A DNA stretch of 64,000 bases from Melioribacteraceae bacterium. GTDB taxonomy: Bacteria > Bacteroidota > Ignavibacteria > Ignavibacteriales > Melioribacteraceae. The notes beneath the pieces were generated by a model. It did not search any database. It saw only the letters and a program-made list of their open reading frames with translations, and was not told the DNA's origin. The stretch lies in the NCBI GenBank assembly GCA_022181065.1, contig BQMY01000079.1, forward strand, positions 1 to 64,000, in the 5' to 3' direction. Shown here one piece after another: positions 40,269 through 60,424 of the stretch (the stretch's first letter is position 1; every line of letters starts with the position of its first letter). Both the position numbers and the translations under genes were made by a program.

Positions 40269-40922
40269 ATGAAATACTTCCAAACTTTTAGAACAAACTG
40301 GCGTGAATTCTTAAAAAACAGATCTGATGTTTACCTTCTTTCAGGTGGAATTTTATTTTTGAGTCTGGTTGTACTTGGGATCAGCAATTTTTTCGGATGG
40401 AATGAAGCACGCCCCGGTACTGTAATCCCCGATCCGGTACTCGCTTTGTTTGAACCGATCGATCTTACATGGATCACCTTCATAGTTTTGTATGGAATTC
40501 TGCTCGTCATCGTTCTTTATATGCTGCCGCGACCTAAAATTCTTTTATTCGCGGCTTACGGATACGGACTCCTTGTCGCGGTGAGAATGGCAACCATGTT
40601 TTTATTGCCGCTGGAAGCGCCCCCTTCGATAATTCCACTCGAAGATCCCTTCATAGCAATTATAGGCGGCGGTGTTACACTCCAGAAAGATTTGTTTTTT
40701 TCGGGTCACACGGGCACTTCATTTTTTTTCTTTTTAATTCTTGAAAACAAACTGCTGAAATATATTATGCTCGCGGTAACGATAATTATAGGAAGTTTCG
40801 TGTTATTGCAGCATGTACATTACTCAATAGATGTATTTTCCGCTCCTTTCTTCACATTTGCGGTGTTTTCAATCACTCGAAAATTTGTTTCGTCCTATTT
40901 GTCTCAAAAAGGAATTATTTAG
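40269..40922 (+). CDS. PAP2-type membrane phosphatase / sphingomyelin-synthase-like protein
   Basis: A 217-residue polytopic membrane protein with about six hydrophobic segments. Two catalytic motifs of the PAP2 superfamily are near the C-terminus: FFSGHTGTSFF (C2, proton-donor His) and QHVHYSIDVFSAPFF (C3, nucleophile His and Asp). The classic C1 KxxxxxxRP is not clear, as in the sphingomyelin synthase-like PAP2_C group, in which this probably falls. It would act on lipid phosphates or transfer lipid head groups at the outer face of the membrane. It overlaps no neighbour, and the next gene starts 47 bases later. Confidence 0.85.
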   Translation: MKYFQTFRTNWREFLKNRSDVYLLSGGILFLSLVVLGISNFFGWNEARPGTVIPDPVLALFEPIDLTWITFIVLYGILLVIVLYMLPRPKILLFAAYGYGLLVAVRMATMFLLPLEAPPSIIPLEDPFIAIIGGGVTLQKDLFFSGHTGTSFFFFLILENKLLKYIMLAVTIIIGSFVLLQHVHYSIDVFSAPFFTFAVFSITRKFVSSYLSQKGII

Positions 40923-40969: not shown

Positions 40970-41605
40970 ATGATTAAACAATCAGTTTATTTACATTATC
41001 TTTCAGCTCTAACAGATGGTGACAGACTCACATGTGTCAGCATCGTTGATAATCTTGTATCCGAAGAGGTTGATATTAAAACCATCTATGTTGACCTCCT
41101 TCAGAAATCGATGTATCGCATCGGTCATCTTTGGGAAAAAAGCAGAGCCTCAATAGCAACTGAACACGTTGCCACAAAAATAACCGAAAACATTTTGAGT
41201 ATGTTGTACCCGGTTGTTTCTTCTTCTGAAAAAATCGGGAAAACCGCGGTTATTACTTGTGTTGACAAGGAATTTCATGAACTGGGCGCTCGAATGATTT
41301 CAGATTATCTTGAATACAAAGGTTGGACCACATATTACCTTGGCGCTAATGTTCCCCGTATTGAAGTTCTAAACCTCATTAAAGAAAAAAAGCCCGACTT
41401 AATAGGAATTTCAGCAAATTTATATGTTAATATCATCAGAGCCTTTAAGTTTGTAGAAGAGATTAAAAAAGAAAGACCCGAACAAAAAATTATAGTGGGT
41501 GGTCAGGCTTTTACACATGAGGATGCCCCAAATCCGCATCAGCTCGAAGAGTGCAGTTATCTTGGAAGTCTCGATGAACTTGATAACTTCATCGCAAATC
41601 TTTAA
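40970..41605 (+). CDS. Freestanding cobalamin-binding, CarH-like light-sensor domain protein
   Basis: A 211-residue soluble protein made of two domains: a helical bundle (about 1-80) and a Rossmann-like B12-binding domain (about 90-211). The bundle holds W55 followed after exactly nine residues by E65-H66, the W-x9-EH signature of CarH/LitR photoreceptors that caps the upper face of adenosylcobalamin. The B12 domain has E101-F-H103-E-L-G106 (the E/D-x-H-x-x-G lower-ligand motif), GISANLY and VGGQAF. CarH normally carries an N-terminal MerR helix-turn-helix; none is present here. The residue after the Trp is Glu, not the His that coordinates Co after photolysis in Thermus CarH. A role as a light- or B12-responsive regulator acting through a partner is inferred. 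Confidence 0.85.
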   Translation: MIKQSVYLHYLSALTDGDRLTCVSIVDNLVSEEVDIKTIYVDLLQKSMYRIGHLWEKSRASIATEHVATKITENILSMLYPVVSSSEKIGKTAVITCVDKEFHELGARMISDYLEYKGWTTYYLGANVPRIEVLNLIKEKKPDLIGISANLYVNIIRAFKFVEEIKKERPEQKIIVGGQAFTHEDAPNPHQLEECSYLGSLDELDNFIANL

Positions 41606-41683: not shown

Positions 41684-44074
41684 ATGCTTTTAATACGTAT
41701 TAAGCAGACCTTGATAGCTGCTTTGTTTATTACTATATCTCTGAACGCGGGTGTGTTCGATATCATTCAACCTGTAAAAATTAAATCGGGTGTTACTGAT
41801 TCGGTTGTGGTTCAGGACCTTTTTTATGCGGAAAATTACAATGTCGCGCTTTCTCCTAACAGCGATATAAACGCAACCTACGATGGCGGCAGTAATGTAA
41901 TTAAATTCGCGCCAAATATGGATTTTTACGGCTTCACTACTTTACAGATAAGCAATTCCGGCGAAGTGCTTGATATCCCGATCGTTGTGAATAGAGAACA
42001 ACGAAGCGAGTTCAATTACAAACCATGGAAAGATTATAAAGAATTGACTGTATTCGGTTCGTTTAACGGCTGGAACCGTCATGAACACTACATGAAAGAT
42101 GACGACGGGGACGGTATTTTTACTGTGGAAGTTCCGGTAGAACCGGGAAATTATCAATATAAGTTTTATGGTGATGGTGAAGAAATTGTAGATCCGAATA
42201 ATCCGGATTCTATCTCGAACGGATCAGGCAGTTTTAACTCCATCCTTGACGTTCTACCGCTTAGTGATGTTAAAACATTTCTTCATATACAGGATTATAC
42301 AAAATCGGAAAATGAAGTGGTATTACAGTTCTCTTATGAACACAATGCTTCCGGGAAACTGGATTCCGGAAAACTTTTCGTTTTTGTTAATAATAATCTA
42401 TTGAGCGATAATTCTGTTGAAGTTTCCGGGAATTCCGCAACGGTCAAGATTGATTCCGATCTGCTTTCAGGTAAAAAACAGATTCGTGTTACCGCCGATG
42501 TTGAAGGTGAAATCTCCAACACACAAAATATAGTTTTGTTTGATGGCGAACCGGCTGGATACAATAATTCCGATTTCACGTGGTACGACGCTACCATTTA
42601 TTCTATTATGGTTGATCGTTTTAATGATGGTGATAGTTCAATAAACGCACCGATAGAGTTCGACTCACTTAAATGGAAGGCGAACTATTTGGGAGGTGAT
42701 CTTCAGGGTATAATTAATAAACTTGAAGATGGGTATTTTGATAAATTGGGTATAAATACTATCTGGATATCACCTGTTTATGATAATCCAAATAAAGCAT
42801 ATAAAGAGTATCCCGCGCCACACAGATATTATTCAGGTTACCACGGATATTGGCCTTCTCACCATGAACGTATCGAAGAAAAATTTGGCGACATGTCAAA
42901 ACTTAAAGAGCTGATCGATACCGCAAAAGAGCATAACATTAAAATTCTGCTTGACTTCGTATCAAATCATGTTCATGAAAATCATCCATTCTTTAAGGAA
43001 AATCGTAACTGGTTCGGTCAGCTTGATCTTCCCGACGGCAGGAAAAATCTTCGTTTTTTTGATGAATTCAGATTAACAACCTGGTTTGAACCATATTTGC
43101 CTTCATTCGATTATAACGCGACACCGGAAGTAATCGAAGCAATGACCGAAAACGCGTTATGGTGGCTTAAAACCACCGGTGCGGCAGGTTTCAGGCATGA
43201 TGCTGTTAAGCACGTACCCAATGAATTCTGGAGAGAATTGACCCGAAGGATAAAAAGTGAAATTGAGAGTAAAGAAAACCGGGAAGTATACCAGATTGGT
43301 GAAACTTTCGGAAGTTATGATCTTATCAGTTCTTACGTTAATAATGGTCAGTTGAGCTCTCAGTTCAATTTTAATCTCTATGACCGCGCAATTTGGGCGT
43401 TCATCGACAGCTCGGTTACCTTTGGTGATCTCGATAAGGAGATGCACAAAACTTTCGATGTTTACGGTTACCTTCACAAGATGGGCAATATTATGGACAG
43501 CCATGATAAAAACAGATATATGGCGCATATTGATGGCGATTTACATCTGAGTGAATGGAGTGCCGCAGAAATTGGTTGGAATAATCCCCCGAAAGTTGAT
43601 CACCCTACAAGTTACAACAGGGCTTTACTTTATTACGCGTGGATGAATTCCATCCCGGGATTGCCGGTGATATATTATGGTAGTGAATTTGGAATGACCG
43701 GAGCATCTGATCCTGATAACCGCCGCATGATGCGGTTTGATGATGAGTTAAATCAGTATGAAAGAGATATGCTCACCGAAACCAGAAAAATTATAAACCT
43801 GCGAAAAGATCTGCCCGCTTTGCGTTACGGGGATTTTTATACTCTTACCGCAGATGAAAATGTATATTCATATGTTCGATCTGATGCTAAACAGCGGGTG
43901 CTTGTTGTGCTAAATAAGTCTGACAAACCTCAGAGAGTTGATCTTACTTTTCCGGCGGTTTTCAATGCACAGAAAGTAACCGATCTAGTTACCGGAACAG
44001 AATTGATTCCTGAAAGGAATTCATTATCGGTTGTAATCGGTTCCTACGGCTGGAGTATGTATCTGATTGATTAA
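41684..44074 (+). CDS. GH13 alpha-amylase-family enzyme (cyclomaltodextrinase/neopullulanase-like)
   Basis: A 796-residue secreted enzyme with a signal peptide. A Big_9/cadherin-like N-terminal part is followed by a CBM48/AMPK-type starch-binding domain (about 125-185: TVFGSFNGWNRHEHYM...). The GH13 barrel starts near residue 300 (TIYSIMVDRFNDGD). The conserved regions are in order: I DFVSNHVHENH (about 424), II GFRHDAVKHV with the nucleophile Asp (about 505), III IGETFGS with the acid-base Glu (about 540), and IV MDSHDKNRY with the transition-state Asp (about 606). A C-terminal beta-sandwich ends the protein without a T9SS module. It hydrolyses alpha-1,4 glucans or cyclodextrins, probably in the periplasm. 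A terminator follows at 44099. Confidence 0.92.
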   Translation: MLLIRIKQTLIAALFITISLNAGVFDIIQPVKIKSGVTDSVVVQDLFYAENYNVALSPNSDINATYDGGSNVIKFAPNMDFYGFTTLQISNSGEVLDIPIVVNREQRSEFNYKPWKDYKELTVFGSFNGWNRHEHYMKDDDGDGIFTVEVPVEPGNYQYKFYGDGEEIVDPNNPDSISNGSGSFNSILDVLPLSDVKTFLHIQDYTKSENEVVLQFSYEHNASGKLDSGKLFVFVNNNLLSDNSVEVSGNSATVKIDSDLLSGKKQIRVTADVEGEISNTQNIVLFDGEPAGYNNSDFTWYDATIYSIMVDRFNDGDSSINAPIEFDSLKWKANYLGGDLQGIINKLEDGYFDKLGINTIWISPVYDNPNKAYKEYPAPHRYYSGYHGYWPSHHERIEEKFGDMSKLKELIDTAKEHNIKILLDFVSNHVHENHPFFKENRNWFGQLDLPDGRKNLRFFDEFRLTTWFEPYLPSFDYNATPEVIEAMTENALWWLKTTGAAGFRHDAVKHVPNEFWRELTRRIKSEIESKENREVYQIGETFGSYDLISSYVNNGQLSSQFNFNLYDRAIWAFIDSSVTFGDLDKEMHKTFDVYGYLHKMGNIMDSHDKNRYMAHIDGDLHLSEWSAAEIGWNNPPKVDHPTSYNRALLYYAWMNSIPGLPVIYYGSEFGMTGASDPDNRRMMRFDDELNQYERDMLTETRKIINLRKDLPALRYGDFYTLTADENVYSYVRSDAKQRVLVVLNKSDKPQRVDLTFPAVFNAQKVTDLVTGTELIPERNSLSVVIGSYGWSMYLID

Positions 44075-44133: not shown

Positions 44134-44182
44134 GATCAAAAAGGGAGGTGTTTTTAATATCACCACTCCATCATAAAAGGTT

Positions 44183-45660
44183 CCTGAGAGGTCGCCTGTC
44201 CCGCAATGCGGGAAAGACCCGAATGTTATGGAGAATTTAATTCTGTAAAAATACTGGATACCCGCCTTCAATAAGTCTTGTGTCATTCCTGCGTAGGCAG
44301 GAATCCAGAGATACAGTCTTGTCACAATACTGCAAATCGAACCCACCCCCTCCGACGCGTCGGACCCTCCTCCCGCTTCACGGGATAAACTTTGTCAAAT
44401 GGAGGGGAGAAAATACTTTCATGCACATGAACTTGTCATTTCCGGCTTGACCGGAAATCTATCCTTATTTCTTGGAGATACCATCCCAACTCGCAGGAGC
44501 TAAGTGCATGACAAACAAGACTCCTGTGGTTCGATAAACTTTGTTCTGAGCTTTTGCCTGTCCCTCAACGCGGGGAAGACCCGAATGTTATGGAGAATTT
44601 AAGGCTGCAAAAATACTGGATACCCGCCTTCAATAAGTCTTGTGTCATTCCTGCGTAGGCAGGAATCCAGAGATACAGTCTTGTCACAATGCTGCAAATC
44701 GAACCCACCCCCTCCGACGCGTCGGACCCTCCTCCCGCTTCACGGGATAAACTTTGTCAAATGGAGGGGTGAAAATACTTTCATGCACATGAACTTGTCA
44801 TTTCCGGCTTGACCGGAAATCTATCCTTATTTCTTGGAGATACCATCCCAACTCGCAGGAGCTAAGTGCATGACAAAACAAGACTCCTGTGGTTCGATAA
44901 ACTTTGTCCTGAGCTGTCGCCTGTCCCGCAACGCGGGGAAGACCCGAATGTTATGGAGAATTTAAGGCTGCAAAAATACTGGATACCCGCCTTTAATAAG
45001 TCTTGTGTCATTCCTGCGTAGGCAGGAATCCAGAGATACAGTCTTGTCACAATACTGCAAATCGAACCCACCCCCTCCGACGCGTCGGACCCTCCTCCCG
45101 CTTCACGGGATAAACTTTGTCAAATGGAGGGGCAAAAATACTTTCATGCACATGAACTTGTCATTTCCGGCTTGACCGGAAATCTATCCTTATTTCTTGG
45201 AGATACCATCCCAACTCGCAGGAGCTAAGTGCATGACAAAACAAGACTCCTGTGGTTCGATAAACTTTGTTCTGAGCTTTTGCCTGTCCCGTAACGCGGG
45301 GAAGACCCGAATGTTATGGAGAATTTAAGGCTGTAAAAATACTGGATACTCGCCTTCAATAAGTCTTGTGTCATTCCTGCGTAGGCAGGAATCCAGAGAT
45401 ACAGTCTTGTCACAATGCTGCAAATCGAACCCACCCCCGACCCCTCCCCCCGCTTTACGGGATAAACTTTGTCAAATGGAGGGGTGAAAATACTTTCATG
45501 CACATGAACTTGTCATTTCCGGCTTGACCGGAAATCTATCCTTATTTCTTGGAGATACCATCCCAACTCGCAGGAGCTAAGTGCATGACAAACAAGACTC
45601 CTGTGGTTCGATAAACTTTGTCCTGAGCTGTCGCCTGTCCCGCAACCCGGGGAAGACCCG
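44183..45660. repeat. Tandem array of four 362-bp palindrome-rich repeats
   Basis: Four near-identical copies follow one another. The landmark GAATGTTATGGAGAATTTAA starts at 44221, 44583, 44946 and 45309, giving periods of 362, 363 and 363 bases; the last unit is about 351 bases because a CCGACGCGTCGG block is missing. Each unit contains several small palindromes: ATTCCTGC-GTAG-GCAGGAAT, TTTCCGG-CTTGA-CCGGAAA, CCGACGCGTCGG, CCCGC-TTCA-CGGG-like and CCCGCAACGCGGG. Point differences are few. Short minus-strand frames inside it (with WIPAYAGMT) are repeat-derived and are not called as genes. The array fills the gap between the GH13 terminator and the thioesterase gene; 45661-45759 shows nothing else. 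Confidence 0.95.
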
Positions 45661-54008: not shown

Positions 54009-55221
54009 TTACATTGTGGTACTTTCTCTGGATTTCACGATGTCAATAAAGGAAGATAAATTTAACAAATTTTCCCGCTGTGTTTCTTTATACGTTGAAT
54101 GTAATGACTCGGGCAGGACGAGCGAAAGTTTGTTTGCTTCCATTTCATTCGTCTGATTTACCGAAATCGCAGGTTCAAGTGTGAACAAGTGTTTCCGCTC
54201 AATACGTTCAGCCTCGGAGAGATCCTGTCGCCATCTATCCTTGCAGGTTGATTTAACGCCGAGCATGGAAAGTCCTGTTCCGGGAAATTTATTATTTCTA
54301 TATTCATCAATTCCGGGGAAATAAAAAATCGGGTTTGGATTTATTTTCTGTTTCCTTGCCCCTTGAAAACTTTATTTCAAGATTTGTAAAAATATTTTCT
54401 AACTGGTTTTCAAGAGCGTAACCGGCTCTGGATTTACGTCTGTTTTGTACACTAAGTGAATAACTTATAAATTTATCAACATCACCCCCGAATCCGGATA
54501 CCAGTTTTTCACGTACAATATGGTTTTCAAATGTTCTGAATAACATTTCCTCTCGTTCAAAAAATTGCATAATCAAGTTGTCCGGTCTTTCGGAATAATC
54601 AACATCTCCCAAGGATTTCCTCGCAAATTCCGAAAACTTTCTGGTTGAGGGGAAGGAGTTACCAAATTCCCTGATCATCTGTTCAAGATACTCATCGGCA
54701 GTTTCCTTAATCTCAATACCAAGTTCATCAAAGATGAAACGGAACGCAAAACTGATTTCACTATCCTCATCATCATCAATAGTTTTACTCTCAAACTTTT
54801 CAGCCAAATCGGATATACCAAACAACCATAGAAGCTGCTTTTCAATAGTGCTGTCGGTTTTTGCAATAAATGCGTTAATTTCACCTTCGTTTGTTAAAGC
54901 GATTACAAGCAAATCGCCCGCGCCAGCTTTTTCCAGTGCCGCGGTATTTCTGAAGTATAATCTGTGTTCTGTTCTGTCGGGATTGTTTTCTCGTGCATCG
55001 TACCATGTCATTTCACAATCTGAAGAAAGAAATTCATCTTCATTTGTATCGAAATAGAGCACCTTTGCCTGCAAGATTTTCTTACTGATACCGAATAAAG
55101 TTTTTAGTCCTGCAACACTATTAAATTCATGCCGGTGTGACGTTTCCGGATCTATCTCAACAGCACTCAGTCTTTTGGCCGCAATGCCTTTGAAGTAGTT
55201 CGACAGATAGCCTTGCTTCAT
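54009..55221 (-). pseudogene. EcoRII-type restriction endonuclease, disrupted by a one-base frameshift
   Basis: The 5' frame (54307-55221) covers the N-terminal effector domain and the start of the catalytic domain, and stops just after KPDFLFP. The 3' part is in another frame and continues as GIDEYRNNKFPGTG, LGVKSTCKDRWRQ and KHLFTLEPAISV, exactly the EcoRII-type catalytic motif order. One extra C in the run CCCC at about 54316-54319 accounts for the shift. Removing it gives 403 residues, close to the length of R.EcoRII as I remember it. It abuts vsr and the cytosine methylase, so the set forms a CCWGG-type system. It could be a true pseudogene, a sequencing error in a short homopolymer, or slippage. 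Confidence 0.85.
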
Positions 55222-55674
55222 TTAGTTATTGCCCTCAATTTCTTTAAATTTTTGTTCCGAATTCAGCCAACTTTCAATTTCATCAATCATATCATCAAAT
55301 ACCAGACGTGTTTTACCTTTTACCGAACATTCCCAGATGATTAATACTCTCCGACCATTGTTTAACAGTTTTTCAATGTTATTTTTATCTCTATTGCTGT
55401 TTTCGGTTATTTTCTTTTTCCAGAATTCAGCTCTTGAGGAAGGCCATTTGAAAAGGTGACAATTGTGAAGATGCCAGAAACAGCCATTAATAAAAATAAC
55501 CGCATTGTGTTTCTTTAAAACAAGATCCGGTTTCCCGGGAAGTTGTGTCACATTGATTCGGTATCTAAAACCTTTGGAGAAAAGCGCTTTCCTGATAAGG
55601 GTTTCCGGTCTGGTGTTTTTACTCTTAATCCCGGACATCATTTTGCTTCGTTTGTTTTTGCTAACAATATCCAT
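55222..55674 (-). CDS. vsr: Very short patch repair endonuclease (Vsr)
   Basis: Nicks DNA 5' of the T in T:G mismatches that arise from deamination of 5-methylcytosine at Dcm-type sites. The 150-residue protein (ATG at 55674; a TTG at 55686 is an alternative that overlaps the methylase stop) opens with the SKNKRSKMMSGIKSKNTRPE motif with the catalytic Arg/Lys/Glu region. It continues with LPGKPDLVLKKHNAVIFINGCFWHLHNC, including the metal-ligand Asp, and FWKKKI. The stop directly abuts the restriction gene start. Presence next to a CCWGG methylase is the usual pairing. Confidence 0.93.
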   Translation of the reverse strand: MDIVSKNKRSKMMSGIKSKNTRPETLIRKALFSKGFRYRINVTQLPGKPDLVLKKHNAVIFINGCFWHLHNCHLFKWPSSRAEFWKKKITENSNRDKNNIEKLLNNGRRVLIIWECSVKGKTRLVFDDMIDEIESWLNSEQKFKEIEGNN

Positions 55675-55682
55675 CACTCTAA

Positions 55683-56936
55683 TCAACCATAAACAAACGC
55701 GAGTTGTTTTGGAGTGTGTCCTTCTTTCTTACCCAGGATATACGGGAGCATGTGATTGGCAACCTCTTCTACCACCGGAACCACAACGCTATTCCCAAAC
55801 TGTTTGTAAGCCTGCGTATCTGAAACAGGAATTTTAAACTGTCTGGTTTCCGTTTCAAATCCCATTAGTCTGGCACATTCAAGCGGGGTAAGGCGTCTGG
55901 GTCTATAATTCTCCTGTTTAACCAGTATTTCGGAACCATCTTTATAGTACCTTGCAGAGAGTGTTCTGGACGTATCATTGGGTCCTACAAGTCCAAATCC
56001 GAATCCGTTACCCCTGGCGCGATGCTTTTCAGCGTATTTCTGTAAATAATTCCATAAATTTTCAGTTAGTGTATATTTTTCAAGAACTTTCCCGGTGTTT
56101 ACCTCAGTATAAGCTGACGGTAGTTCTGTGCCATCCTCGGAGTGGAAGATTCTCCTTAATTTGGGACCTGCGTCAGATTTTGGAATTTTCATGTCTTCAA
56201 AATTGAACCCGACATCTTCACGAAATCCAACGATAAATATTCTTTCCCTGTGTTGAGGGACAAATGATTTTGCGTCGATAATTCGTGTATGAAAAGTATA
56301 ACCCAGCTCATTCAGGGTATCACAAATGACTTGAAAAGTTTTACCTTTATCATGACTTTTCAAGTTCTTGACATTCTCCAGCAAGAAGGCTTTCGGTCTG
56401 TGAAAATCAAGTATTTCGGCGATTTTAAAGAATAAAGTGCCCTGAGTTTTATCACGGAAACCATGTGGTTTTCCAAGCGCGTTTTTTTTGCTGACTCCCG
56501 CGATTGAAAACGGTTGACATGGAAATCCGGCAACCAGAACATCATGTTCAGGTATATCTGAAGGGTTTACCTGATTTATATCACCATCAATTTTGTGTGT
56601 ATCAGGAAAATTTGCAAGATAGGTTTTAACTGCGTGTTTATCCCATTCACTGGTATAGACACACTCACCACCGACAGACTCAAACGCAAGACGCATACCC
56701 CCGATTCCTGCAAACAAATCAATGAATCTGAATTCACTTTTTTTCGATTCATTCTGCCCTTGATTAGTAATCTTGTCAGTAAGGAGTGAAATTACAAGTT
56801 TATTTGGTGATGTTTCACCCTTCTCCCATCTGTAAACAGTTCTTGCTGTATTACCGGTAAGATTTGCTACTTCATCAATCTCCATTCCGGCTTGTTCTCT
56901 CAAAACTGCAAATTTATTTATTCGTTCGTACTTCAT
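55683..56936 (-). CDS. Cytosine-C5 DNA methyltransferase with N-terminal helix-turn-helix
   Basis: Transfers a methyl group to cytosine C5. I start at the ATG at 56936 (MKYERINKF), placing the palindrome at 56951-56971 upstream; a GTG at 56978 and ATG at 56960 are in frame but lie in or beyond it. An XRE-type helix-turn-helix occupies about 5-55 (LREQAGMEIDEVANLTGN). The catalytic domain follows: motif I FIDLFAGIGGMR, motif IV GFPCQPFSIAG with the nucleophile Cys, motif VI ENVKNL, motif VIII QHRERIFIVG, motif IX LTPLECARLMGFE and motif X FGNSVVVPV. It resembles M.EcoRII/M.SsoII enzymes, which bind their own promoter through this N-terminal domain. The companion endonuclease is frameshifted. 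Confidence 0.93.
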   Translation of the reverse strand: MKYERINKFAVLREQAGMEIDEVANLTGNTARTVYRWEKGETSPNKLVISLLTDKITNQGQNESKKSEFRFIDLFAGIGGMRLAFESVGGECVYTSEWDKHAVKTYLANFPDTHKIDGDINQVNPSDIPEHDVLVAGFPCQPFSIAGVSKKNALGKPHGFRDKTQGTLFFKIAEILDFHRPKAFLLENVKNLKSHDKGKTFQVICDTLNELGYTFHTRIIDAKSFVPQHRERIFIVGFREDVGFNFEDMKIPKSDAGPKLRRIFHSEDGTELPSAYTEVNTGKVLEKYTLTENLWNYLQKYAEKHRARGNGFGFGLVGPNDTSRTLSARYYKDGSEILVKQENYRPRRLTPLECARLMGFETETRQFKIPVSDTQAYKQFGNSVVVPVVEEVANHMLPYILGKKEGHTPKQLAFVYG

Positions 56937-56950
56937 AATCCACGGGAATG

Positions 56951-56971
56951 TTTTTGACATAATGTCAAAAA
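56951..56971. promoter_or_regulatory. Palindromic operator upstream of the methyltransferase gene
   Basis: TTTTTGACAT-A-ATGTCAAAAA is a perfect 10-bp inverted repeat with one central base, 14 bases upstream of the chosen ATG. The methylase has an N-terminal helix-turn-helix, and M.SsoII/M.EcoRII-type enzymes repress their own genes through such sites. The first arm also contains TTGACA, so the site may cover the -35 region. Confidence 0.65.
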
Positions 56972-57010
56972 TAGTCACTTGCCTTCATAATTACAATAAT
57001 AATTTAAAAC

Positions 57011-57040: not shown

Positions 57041-57063
57041 GGGGAAGTAAATAATTTTTTGAT

Positions 57064-57211
57064 TTACGGTGCCCCGGTTCGGGGAGAATAGGGAAGTCGG
57101 TTAAAGTCCGACGCTGTCGCGCAACTGTAATTGGCGCTAACATAAAACAATCTGCCACTGTTTTCACGGGAAGGCGTTTTATGCTGCCAAAAGCCAGGAG
57201 ACCTGCCGTAA
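57064..57211 (+). ncRNA. Cobalamin riboswitch
   Basis: The conserved elements of the RF00174-type aptamer are in order: P1 strand TTACGG (57064-57069), GGTTAAAGTCCGACGCTGTC with GCGCAACTGTAA, a GCCACTG segment, the GGGAAGGCG block, GCCAGGAGACCTGCC, and the closing P1 strand CCGTAA (57206-57211). The two P1 strands are perfectly complementary. It binds adenosyl- or methylcobalamin and would repress the downstream operon when B12 is plentiful. The operon encodes a BtuB-like receptor, which fits. Confidence 0.96.
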
Positions 57212-57292
57212 GTTCAGGATATTAACCTTCGCGGAAAAGGTTGTTGATCTAAGGTCCTTCCTTTTATCATTCCGGATTTCCCGCTGCGTTAA

Positions 57293-58267: not shown

Positions 58268-60424
58268 ATGTTCTCAACACGGAAAATATTACTCCTTCTG
58301 GTATTATTGTCAGGTTACTCCTTACCACAATATGTTCTCGACAGCAGCAATTTTGAACCAATCGAGGGTGTGAGTGTATCAGGAAAAACACTTTCTACCT
58401 TCACTGATAAAAAGGGGTGGTTCGATCTTGCTGCTGTACCTGACGATACCCTGTACTTTTCGCATATCGGTTATAACACGAAAAATCTTTCTCGCCGGGA
58501 AGTTGCCATTTGTGATACGATCTATTTATTCCTGCGTAATATACAGACGGCGGAAGTTATAGTATCAGATAAAAAATCAAACAACAAAGCCATATCGAAA
58601 TCGGTTGAAAAACCTATCACAGATGAAGAAAAATTCACAGTTAAAAGTTTGTCGGAAGTTATCACAAAAAATTCAACTCTTATCATAAGGGATTACGGCG
58701 GCTATGCCGGATTAAAAACAGCGTCGGTTAGAGGTTTGAGCAGCGAAAATACCATTGTACTTTTCAACGAAGCCAAAGTGAACGATATCAGAACCGGTTC
58801 ATTCGATTTGTCACTGGTTTCACCATCGGTGCTTTCAAGTGTAAACTACTCCGGAGTATCAACAGATGAATACTATGGAGCCTCGGCGGGGGGTGTGCTA
58901 AAACTCTCGACCGCGAATAGTGTTATCGAGGATAAGCTGAGTATTTCGCTTGGCGGTGGATCATTTGGCAGCCGGAAGTTAAGCACTCTGTTTCAAAGTG
59001 GCTCCGGCAAAATAAACTATTCCCTCAACGCAGAACGTGCCTACGCAAAAAATGATTATAACTATAATTTTTTGGATAAAACTCTGAACAGAAGTAACAG
59101 TTTCTATTCCCGTTCCTTCATATCGGGTAACCTGAATTATAACACAAGTCGGAATAGTGTTACCCTTTATACTCATTTTTCCTCAATGGTAAATGGTCTG
59201 CCAGGTTTTGTAACGACAAACAATTTTAATACGAGTAAAGCGGTCAATTCCAATAAGTCACTTTTGGTTGTAGTAAATGATCACCTGCTGCTTTCTGATA
59301 ATTTAATTTTACGGGTGAATGTTAATACACATCTGCAATCAATAAAGTATGAAGACCCGGAAGGTAAGATACTCTCGGTTGGAAAAATCCAATCATCACG
59401 CTTAACAGATATAGGCTACAGTGCAGGCGGAATTTATTCTGTTAACAATCTGCTATCGCTGAATTTCGGTTATCGGGGGAGCACTTCCCTTTTAAGCGGA
59501 CTTGTGAGTTTCACCACCGCTACAGCCCCTCCTGAAAAAGTATCGCGTAACGAAAGTATTCTCTACTCCGGTATTACCTCCTTTCGAGAATTGGAAATTC
59601 CCTATCTAAATTATGTGAAAAGCTCAATTCTCGGGGCATACACAAGAATAGATGAAAAAATTTACGCTGCTACTGTTGATGATAATCTTTCGCTAAACGT
59701 GGGAATTGAATTAAATCTGGATTTAATGTTTCAACCATCACTCGTATTTCATTATTCAAACGATACACGAATTCCAACATTTAACGAGCGTTACTATTCC
59801 GGATTGTATGATATTTCCGCCTTGAAAAATGAAGAATATGAAGTATTTGATATTGGACTGGAAATAAACAATTCGCCATCCCTCGGCACATTCTCGTTTT
59901 ACTATTTTCACATTACCGGCAAAAATAAAATCATATGGGTTCCATATTTGTCAACACTTCAGGTTCCACGAAATATAAACGGGATAGACAATTCCGGAGT
60001 TGAACTCGGTTACAAAAATAAAATTGAGCATATAAACACATCACTCAACATAATTTACACATATACAAACGCCAGAAATATTTCAGAATTTACTGATGAA
60101 AGCTCTCACGGCAAACAGCTCATTTACACCCCGAAACATAGCCTGAAAGCCGGGATTATTTACTCTCCCGAAAATTTTTGGGTGAGTCTTTCATTTATTT
60201 ACACGGGTAGCAGATTTTATACATTCGATAACGATCCTTTTAGCAAACTTGAGCCACATTTCATCACAGATTTATCTGCCTCTTATAAGCTTAATTTCTG
60301 GAATACAGGTCACAGACTATCTGTGAGTATTTACAATTTATTTGATGAAGACTATATGGTCATCCAGTCCTATCCGATGCCCAAACGTACATTTTCAATT
60401 AATTACGAGATAGAAATTATATGA
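58268..60424 (+). CDS. btuB: TonB-dependent receptor, BtuB-like
   Basis: A 718-residue outer-membrane receptor. A signal peptide is followed by a shortened carboxypeptidase-regulatory-like domain (about 20-95: SNFEPIEGVSVSG), then the plug (about 120-230) with YGGYAGLKTASVRGLSSENTIVLFNEAKVND and AGGVLKL, and a 22-strand-type barrel ending SYPMPKRTFSINYEIEII, whose terminal aromatic/hydrophobic strand fits the barrel-insertion signal. Position immediately downstream of a cobalamin riboswitch gives the substrate assignment: cobalamin or a related corrinoid. The ATG directly follows the upstream stop and its own stop overlaps the next ATG by four bases. Substrate is inferred from context, not residues. 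Confidence 0.88.
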   Translation: MFSTRKILLLLVLLSGYSLPQYVLDSSNFEPIEGVSVSGKTLSTFTDKKGWFDLAAVPDDTLYFSHIGYNTKNLSRREVAICDTIYLFLRNIQTAEVIVSDKKSNNKAISKSVEKPITDEEKFTVKSLSEVITKNSTLIIRDYGGYAGLKTASVRGLSSENTIVLFNEAKVNDIRTGSFDLSLVSPSVLSSVNYSGVSTDEYYGASAGGVLKLSTANSVIEDKLSISLGGGSFGSRKLSTLFQSGSGKINYSLNAERAYAKNDYNYNFLDKTLNRSNSFYSRSFISGNLNYNTSRNSVTLYTHFSSMVNGLPGFVTTNNFNTSKAVNSNKSLLVVVNDHLLLSDNLILRVNVNTHLQSIKYEDPEGKILSVGKIQSSRLTDIGYSAGGIYSVNNLLSLNFGYRGSTSLLSGLVSFTTATAPPEKVSRNESILYSGITSFRELEIPYLNYVKSSILGAYTRIDEKIYAATVDDNLSLNVGIELNLDLMFQPSLVFHYSNDTRIPTFNERYYSGLYDISALKNEEYEVFDIGLEINNSPSLGTFSFYYFHITGKNKIIWVPYLSTLQVPRNINGIDNSGVELGYKNKIEHINTSLNIIYTYTNARNISEFTDESSHGKQLIYTPKHSLKAGIIYSPENFWVSLSFIYTGSRFYTFDNDPFSKLEPHFITDLSASYKLNFWNTGHRLSVSIYNLFDEDYMVIQSYPMPKRTFSINYEIEII

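Follow-up and report, generated by a model that had tools for sequence, protein, structure and literature searches.

The protein encoded at positions 40970..41605 of the window, by which we mean the whole 64,000-nucleotide stretch of Melioribacteraceae DNA that was analysed, is probably a freestanding vitamin B12 photosensor. We give a probability of about 0.6 to the reading that it is a freestanding receptor for adenosylcobalamin (AdoCbl), of the same type as photocobilins and CarH, that switches its oligomeric state according to light or AdoCbl and acts through a partner protein. It belongs to a real and well-conserved family, kin to the cobalamin-binding domains (CBDs) of the photocobilins, that has no globin, DNA-binding domain or kinase. 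In known B12 photoreceptors the output comes from a fused domain (DNA-binding, diguanylate cyclase), and AerR is read out by one known repressor. What is new in the present analysis is an orphan clade that is nested among kinase-linked homologues and has left the kinase behind; we found no publication on this clade in the open-access literature.

CBD matches at E 1e-10 or better occur in 104 of 196 related genomes, and the homologues include standalone proteins of ∼215 aa, globin-CBD fusions of ∼355 aa whose N-terminal domain gives a match to phycobiliproteins (9v7j, E 7.8e-6), and corrinoid proteins carrying DLHDIGK. Named genomes were scanned as well and contributed 77 CBD loci, from Ignavibacteria, Bacteroidota, SAR324, Desulfobacteraceae, Thermodesulfovibrionales and Halorhodospira, with more distant ones in Bacillota and one spirochaete. 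The window protein and 65 of these 77 loci make up the 66 rows of alignment A2, the 12 loci left out (L124, L126, L145-L154) being partial or distant. In the residue counts L140 is grouped with the kinase-linked rows on account of its place in the tree, though no kinase gene lies beside it. The features of the gene and its product are as follows.

40970..41605, + strand: freestanding CBD protein of 211 aa, member of the orphan (kinase-free) clade, ATG start.
40997..41206, + strand: four-helix B12-binding_2 cap domain, residues 10-79 (Pfam PF02607, E 6.1e-13).
41033..41035, + strand: Cys22 codon, invariant in 66/66 rows, the kinase-linked ones included; Ala in the globin-CBD fusions.
41132..41134, + strand: Trp55 codon, adenosyl-capping residue, 66/66 rows of A2.
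41135..41137, + strand: Glu56 codon, at the place of CarH His132, E/D in 66/66 rows of A2.
41162..41167, + strand: Glu65-His66 codons, capping motif, 66/66 rows of A2.
41243..41518, + strand: Rossmann B12-binding domain, residues 92-183 (Pfam PF02310, E 1.2e-18).
41267..41269, + strand: Lys100 codon, a mark of the orphan clade, 46/46 orphan rows vs 3/20 kinase-linked rows.
41270..41287, + strand: E101-x-H103-x-x-G106, lower-ligand loop with His103; H103 and G106 in 66/66 rows, E101 in 65/66.
41438..41440, + strand: Arg157 codon, a mark of the orphan clade, 46/46 orphan rows vs 0/20 kinase-linked rows.

Pfam recognises no domain in the protein beyond B12-binding_2 and B12-binding, and because the open frame around 40970-41605 is only 213 codons long no DNA-binding domain can lie upstream in frame. 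A MerR domain is absent from the N-terminus by both Pfam and this open-frame check, and by Pfam and the structure model all 211 residues are accounted for by the CBD, with no bilin-binding globin domain in the chain. The sequence-only reading had located W55-x9-E65-H66 and E101-x-H103-x-x-G106 in this frame and had pointed to a Glu instead of a His after Trp55, and these observations are borne out. The capping Trp and Glu-His and the lower-ligand His of photoreceptor CBDs are present in every row of A2, and since W55, E65, H66, H103 and G106 are invariant (66/66) the motif residues are not there by chance; G125 is also invariant (66/66). A further residue, Q45, marks the orphan clade (45/46 rows vs 6/20 kinase-linked rows). 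At position 56 the globin-CBD fusions have Gln (8/8), and the corrinoid proteins compared (n=3) show F/L/L where the capping residues would be, L074 with F, V, L being a near match.

The AlphaFold2 model of the protein, made from 66 sequences, has a mean pLDDT of 93.5 and places the cap-domain helices at residues 4-15, 19-31, 36-56 and 62-84. The four-helix cap and Rossmann fold of photoreceptor CBDs are thus found by Pfam, by the model and by Foldseek, for which the best 50 PDB matches listed are all CBDs of AdoCbl photoreceptors (photocobilins, CtMerR, TtCarH/LitR), with photocobilin 8j2w at the top (TM 0.87, 2.2 A) and the CarH/LitR chains at TM 0.64-0.78. Photocobilin 8j2w is also the best solved chain by sequence (E 3.6e-21), with CtMerR 8jbs at E 1e-14, TtCarH 5c8a at E 2.7e-5 and AerR 7te2 at E 0.23. 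The protein had been described from its sequence as a freestanding CarH-like sensor; it is indeed freestanding, a domain of the B12 photoreceptor type with no DNA-binding domain attached, but the photocobilin CBDs are nearer to it by sequence and fold than CarH/LitR and CtMerR are, and the term CarH-like applies in a wide sense only.

The photocobilins (SasPcob, 8j2w/8j2x; AbDPcob, 8j2y) share with the window protein the CBD fold and the capping residues and, as described, they too are without a DNA-binding domain and have a residue other than His after the Trp; they differ in carrying a globin (biliverdin) domain in the chain, whereas the window gene has no globin either in cis or next door (PMC10979010). 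CarH/LitR (MerR-CBD) and CtMerR have in common with it the CBD fold, W-x9-EH and the lower-ligand His, but it lacks their MerR domain and has Glu56 in place of His132. AerR/PpaA, the CrtJ antirepressor, is reported to be a B12 CBD that acts on a partner and is likewise freestanding, with a cap formed by Trp94/Phe101 and an upper ligand, His10, in an N-terminal extension (PMC9144470). In the BBAG-2 clusters a separate CBD gene is described beside a globin-fold gene (PMC10151467), as in many of the kinase-linked cousins considered below, and in this the clusters differ from the window gene, which has no globin neighbour.

A published signature of light-responsive CBDs consists of GxxW, EH, GxxH and GxxxP (PMC11796333). 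The window protein satisfies three of these parts but fails at GxxH, having Lys100 and not Gly, and this counts against a role in light sensing. The orphan rows have GxxW and EH in 46/46, GxxxP in 44/46 and GxxH in 0/46, so that a search with the strict GxxH signature would be expected to miss the entire clade. The missing His at position 56 is not by itself odd, as the equivalent residue in photoactive proteins is reported to be Gln in SasPcob, Tyr in AbDPcob and Arg in CtMerR (PMC11796333); the odd part is the conserved acid. Loss of the His need not be harmless, however, since the H132A form of TtCarH is reported mostly to stay a tetramer in the light (PMC10442372).

By analogy with SasPcob, for which a dark dimer, aquo/hydroxo-cobalamin in the light and a movement of the Glu71/His72 helix are described (PMC10979010), we propose that the window protein is a dimer switch held by AdoCbl. 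The cofactor would be bound base-off, with His103 as the lower ligand, and its adenosyl group would be capped by Trp55 and Glu65-His66, holding the dark dimer together. If the Co-C bond is broken by light, or if AdoCbl is absent, the Glu65-His66 helix would shift and the dimer would open, so binding or freeing a partner protein. Since an acid takes the place of His at position 56, the light state is predicted to be an aquo/hydroxo- or carboxylate-ligated Co(III), not a bis-His form. A photoreceptor-type AdoCbl pocket is very likely, and a response to light in vitro is likely; that light is also the natural signal has, in our estimate, slightly less than an even chance. With no effector domain, linked kinase or globin, the output would pass through contact with another protein, and we think it likely that this protein is encoded at an unlinked site. 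SasPcob is reported to act in trans on a diguanylate cyclase, and a standalone photocobilin to act in trans, in vitro, on a different protein (PMC10979010). A change from dimer to monomer likewise has published precedent (PMC10979010, PMC11796333).

The position of the window protein among its homologues was examined in a careful tree of 65 rows, which remained from 89 after 12 distant rows and 12 near-duplicates were dropped, and which was rooted on the globin-CBD fusions, the root being an assumption. The window protein falls within one Ignavibacteria orphan clade (39 rows, support 98/96), and with the fusion root this clade is nested among rows whose gene abuts that of a PAS histidine kinase. 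Two changes suffice for the kinase label, one of which is the single row L140, and given the assumed root the nesting implies a single loss of the kinase link. In L102, L105, L109, L110, L119 and L120, which lie outside the clade, the CBD gene directly adjoins or overlaps a PAS histidine kinase gene, and, again outside it, the order CBD, k8 (a protein of ∼150 aa), kinase is seen at contig C137 of the window's own genome, in G094 and G126, and at most Bacteroidota loci. This suggests that the orphan-clade lineage formerly provided a PAS histidine kinase with its input and was later turned to a different use, in which it would serve another partner. The capping residues are kept in 46/46 orphan rows and K100 and R157 are specific to the clade, a pattern that suggests a changed function and not decay.

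Among the neighbours of the gene, PAP2 is a weak candidate for the partner. In loci of the Melioribacteraceae type the order is PAP2_C protein, CBD, alpha-amylase, and the two flanking genes of the window are the following.

40269..40922, + strand: PAP2_C membrane protein (PF14360), conserved upstream neighbour, adjacent in 24/24 loci holding both.
41684..44074, + strand: alpha-amylase family protein (PF00128), conserved downstream neighbour, adjacent in 19/19 loci holding both.

These counts come from 68 loci, in which a control pair, k7-PAP2, is adjacent in 8/13, and the PAP2 and CBD genes share one strand, with gaps mostly <75 nt. Such constancy would fit a protein that controls the PAP2-type membrane enzyme encoded next to it (or the amylase), but we regard this as distinctly unlikely, because PAP2 is present in 111/196 relatives, because in six relatives without a CBD at that place the PAP2 gene adjoins the amylase gene with <=157 nt between them, and because the Ignavibacteriaceae loci have other neighbours, the CBD being followed either by MlaE-ABC-MlaD genes or by genes for DtxR-type regulators and FeoB-like proteins (FeoB by sequence reading). 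The six CBD-free loci point to the CBD gene as a cassette between neighbours that dispense with it, and they weaken PAP2 as an obligate partner. That the window protein acts in trans as input to an unlinked histidine kinase or globin, much as the kinase-linked cousins would in cis, is made thinkable by the kinase-linked lineages that surround the orphan clade and by the one CBD-globin-kinase operon (C137) that its own genome retains. It is quite improbable all the same, as the cognate kinase sensor domain (alignment A5), searched for in ten chosen genomes each with an orphan-clade member, was not found in nine, single-contig genomes G008, G043 and G091 included, and in the tenth, the window's own, it was found solely at the paralogous C137 operon. 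A place for the protein in a methyltransferase system, as a corrinoid protein of the MtgC/MtbC type, would accord with its NCBIfam scores, of which that for MtgC is the best (58 bits), above CarH (45.1), pyl_corrinoid (44) and MtbC (40), though all are far under the respective cut-offs of 370, 400 (the CarH equivalog), 215 and 350 bits; NCBIfam was rejected as an arbiter between corrinoid protein and CarH, since 66/66 rows match both the MtgC and the CarH models. The capping W/E/H is present in the window protein, whereas in such genomes the true corrinoid paralogues carry F/L/L and DLHDIGK, and one of them (L076) adjoins a gene that reads as homocysteine S-methyltransferase-like. The sequence-only reading had held that orthologues always beside corrinoid methyltransferases would make this a corrinoid protein; no corrinoid methyltransferase was recognised beside clade members in 70 neighbour proteins, among the 25 families listed out of 129 found, and we consider the corrinoid-protein assignment extremely unlikely.

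The DtxR/Feo sub-clade (9 loci) bears on the cofactor. A gene for BtuR/CobO, an AdoCbl-making enzyme, lies directly upstream of the CBD gene in L111, L113, L117 and L121 and <=3 genes away in L106 and L108 (PF02572, E 1e-59). These neighbours of some clade members, and a PduO-type adenosyltransferase in the window's own genome, support AdoCbl as the ligand. The neighbours would also suit a sensor of AdoCbl supply, or of the redox or oxygen state of cobalt, that has no light role and in which the apo and AdoCbl-bound forms set the oligomer and the contact with the partner: BtuR and DtxR/FeoB genes belong to cofactor and iron homeostasis, several clade records carry labels that we interpret as mine, groundwater and cave, which are odd for a light sensor, and heme oxygenase PF01126 was not found in the window's own genome, so that no bilin antenna is evident there. 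CarH, moreover, reportedly combines light and oxygen as inputs (PMC10442372). We nonetheless judge a sensor of this kind, with no part for light, to be rather unlikely, as the full adenosyl-capping motif of photoreceptors is kept in 66/66 rows and the closest solved relatives are photoactive; the supply-sensor and light-switch readings are not exclusive and can both hold. Photolyase domain PF03441 is present in 40/196 relatives, with a weak match on another contig of the window's own genome (29.8 bits, cut-off 27), and among the matches listed it occurs in the window's family only in G000, G002, G010 and G029; its absence from most searched genomes of the family also counts against a light sensor. 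Photolyase, carotenoid and anti-sigma genes had been proposed as partners to look for near orthologues; no carotenoid or anti-sigma gene was recognised among the neighbours, and just 2/9 loci of one sub-clade have a photolyase gene, 5-6 genes downstream. Photolyase was rejected as a general context of the CBD, being near the gene only in that one sub-clade (L108, L111 and L058, the last, to judge by length, on the same contig as L111).

Returning to the AdoCbl-dependent switch that we favour, the clade keeps its chromophore site without effector domain, linked kinase or globin, which suggests a module able to take on a different partner, and the identity of its partner would bear on standalone B12 domains as general protein-protein switches governed by light or cofactor. 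A fuller account is tentative and somewhat doubtful: on a single occasion in the Ignavibacteria, a B12 photoreceptor module may have parted from its histidine kinase and joined a new partner, an acid having replaced the light-state His (a carboxylate- or water-ligated cobalt switch) and Lys100 and Arg157 marking either a new contact or a changed corrinoid site. If true, this would be a kinase-free, DNA-free and bilin-free B12 switch, an output class so far undescribed.

The kinase-linked cousins warrant a closer look. The structure model of k8 has a pLDDT of 93.2, and its VIA-align matches are smURFP (Z 13.1), globin-coupled sensors (up to 12.9), allophycocyanins (∼12) and the globin domain of photocobilin 8j2x (Z 10.9), although with helical folds a Z below about 13 may carry little meaning. 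The k8 profile has no match to PDB chains better than E 0.5, Foldseek gives the model no match at E 0.001 or better (best 0.038), and hhalign against the N-terminal phycobiliprotein-like domain of the globin-CBD fusions gives a probability of 0.3%, leaving kinship unsupported by sequence; the globin assignment thus follows from the globins and phycobiliproteins that VIA-align returns. On the strength of that model the CBD-k8-kinase operons look like a photocobilin split over two genes plus a kinase, and split globin and B12-binding genes have been published for Myxococcales (PMC10151467). The C137 operon of the window's own genome (L063, 8288-11089; also L155) is such a set, with a second standalone CBD, k8 and a histidine kinase with a receiver domain, and this split-photocobilin-like two-component set sits in a genome without PF01126 heme oxygenase. 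Genome G043, one of the nine without the A5 sensor domain, has a globin-CBD and kinase pair of another kind. In the named isolate Halorhodospira abdelmalekii (L119, 7001-8792) the CBD gene overlaps the PAS histidine kinase gene by 11 nt, with no globin gene beside the pair, which makes it well suited to laboratory study as a candidate B12 light-sensing kinase. The cousins as a group (CBD, often a globin-fold gene, PAS histidine kinase) resemble a ready-made two-component B12 sensor and are small enough to matter for optogenetics. In Bacilli (L149-L152) a diverged standalone CBD gene overlaps a permease-like gene, which is followed by an ABC ATPase-like gene; the overlap is 4 nt in 3/4 and 52 nt in L150 with the called start, and the capping Trp is apparently lost in L149.

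The window's own genome contains six further B12-binding-domain loci, and the window itself one further element connected with cobalamin.

57050-57224: cobalamin riboswitch (RF00174, 116.9 bits), 15 kb from the CBD gene.

The riboswitch precedes genes for a T9SS-tailed protein and a TonB-type receptor (58268-60424), and together these probably constitute a B12 uptake operon. Elsewhere in the window, genes for a Type II restriction enzyme, a Vsr endonuclease and a cytosine methyltransferase form a restriction-modification set (54307-56978), and at 67-1559 an AAA-ATPase with weak AbiLi/GajA-type matches is followed by a 225-aa protein without a PADLOC match, a possible two-gene defence pair. Just downstream of the amylase gene, at 44151-45660, lie four tandem copies of a ∼362-nt repeat.
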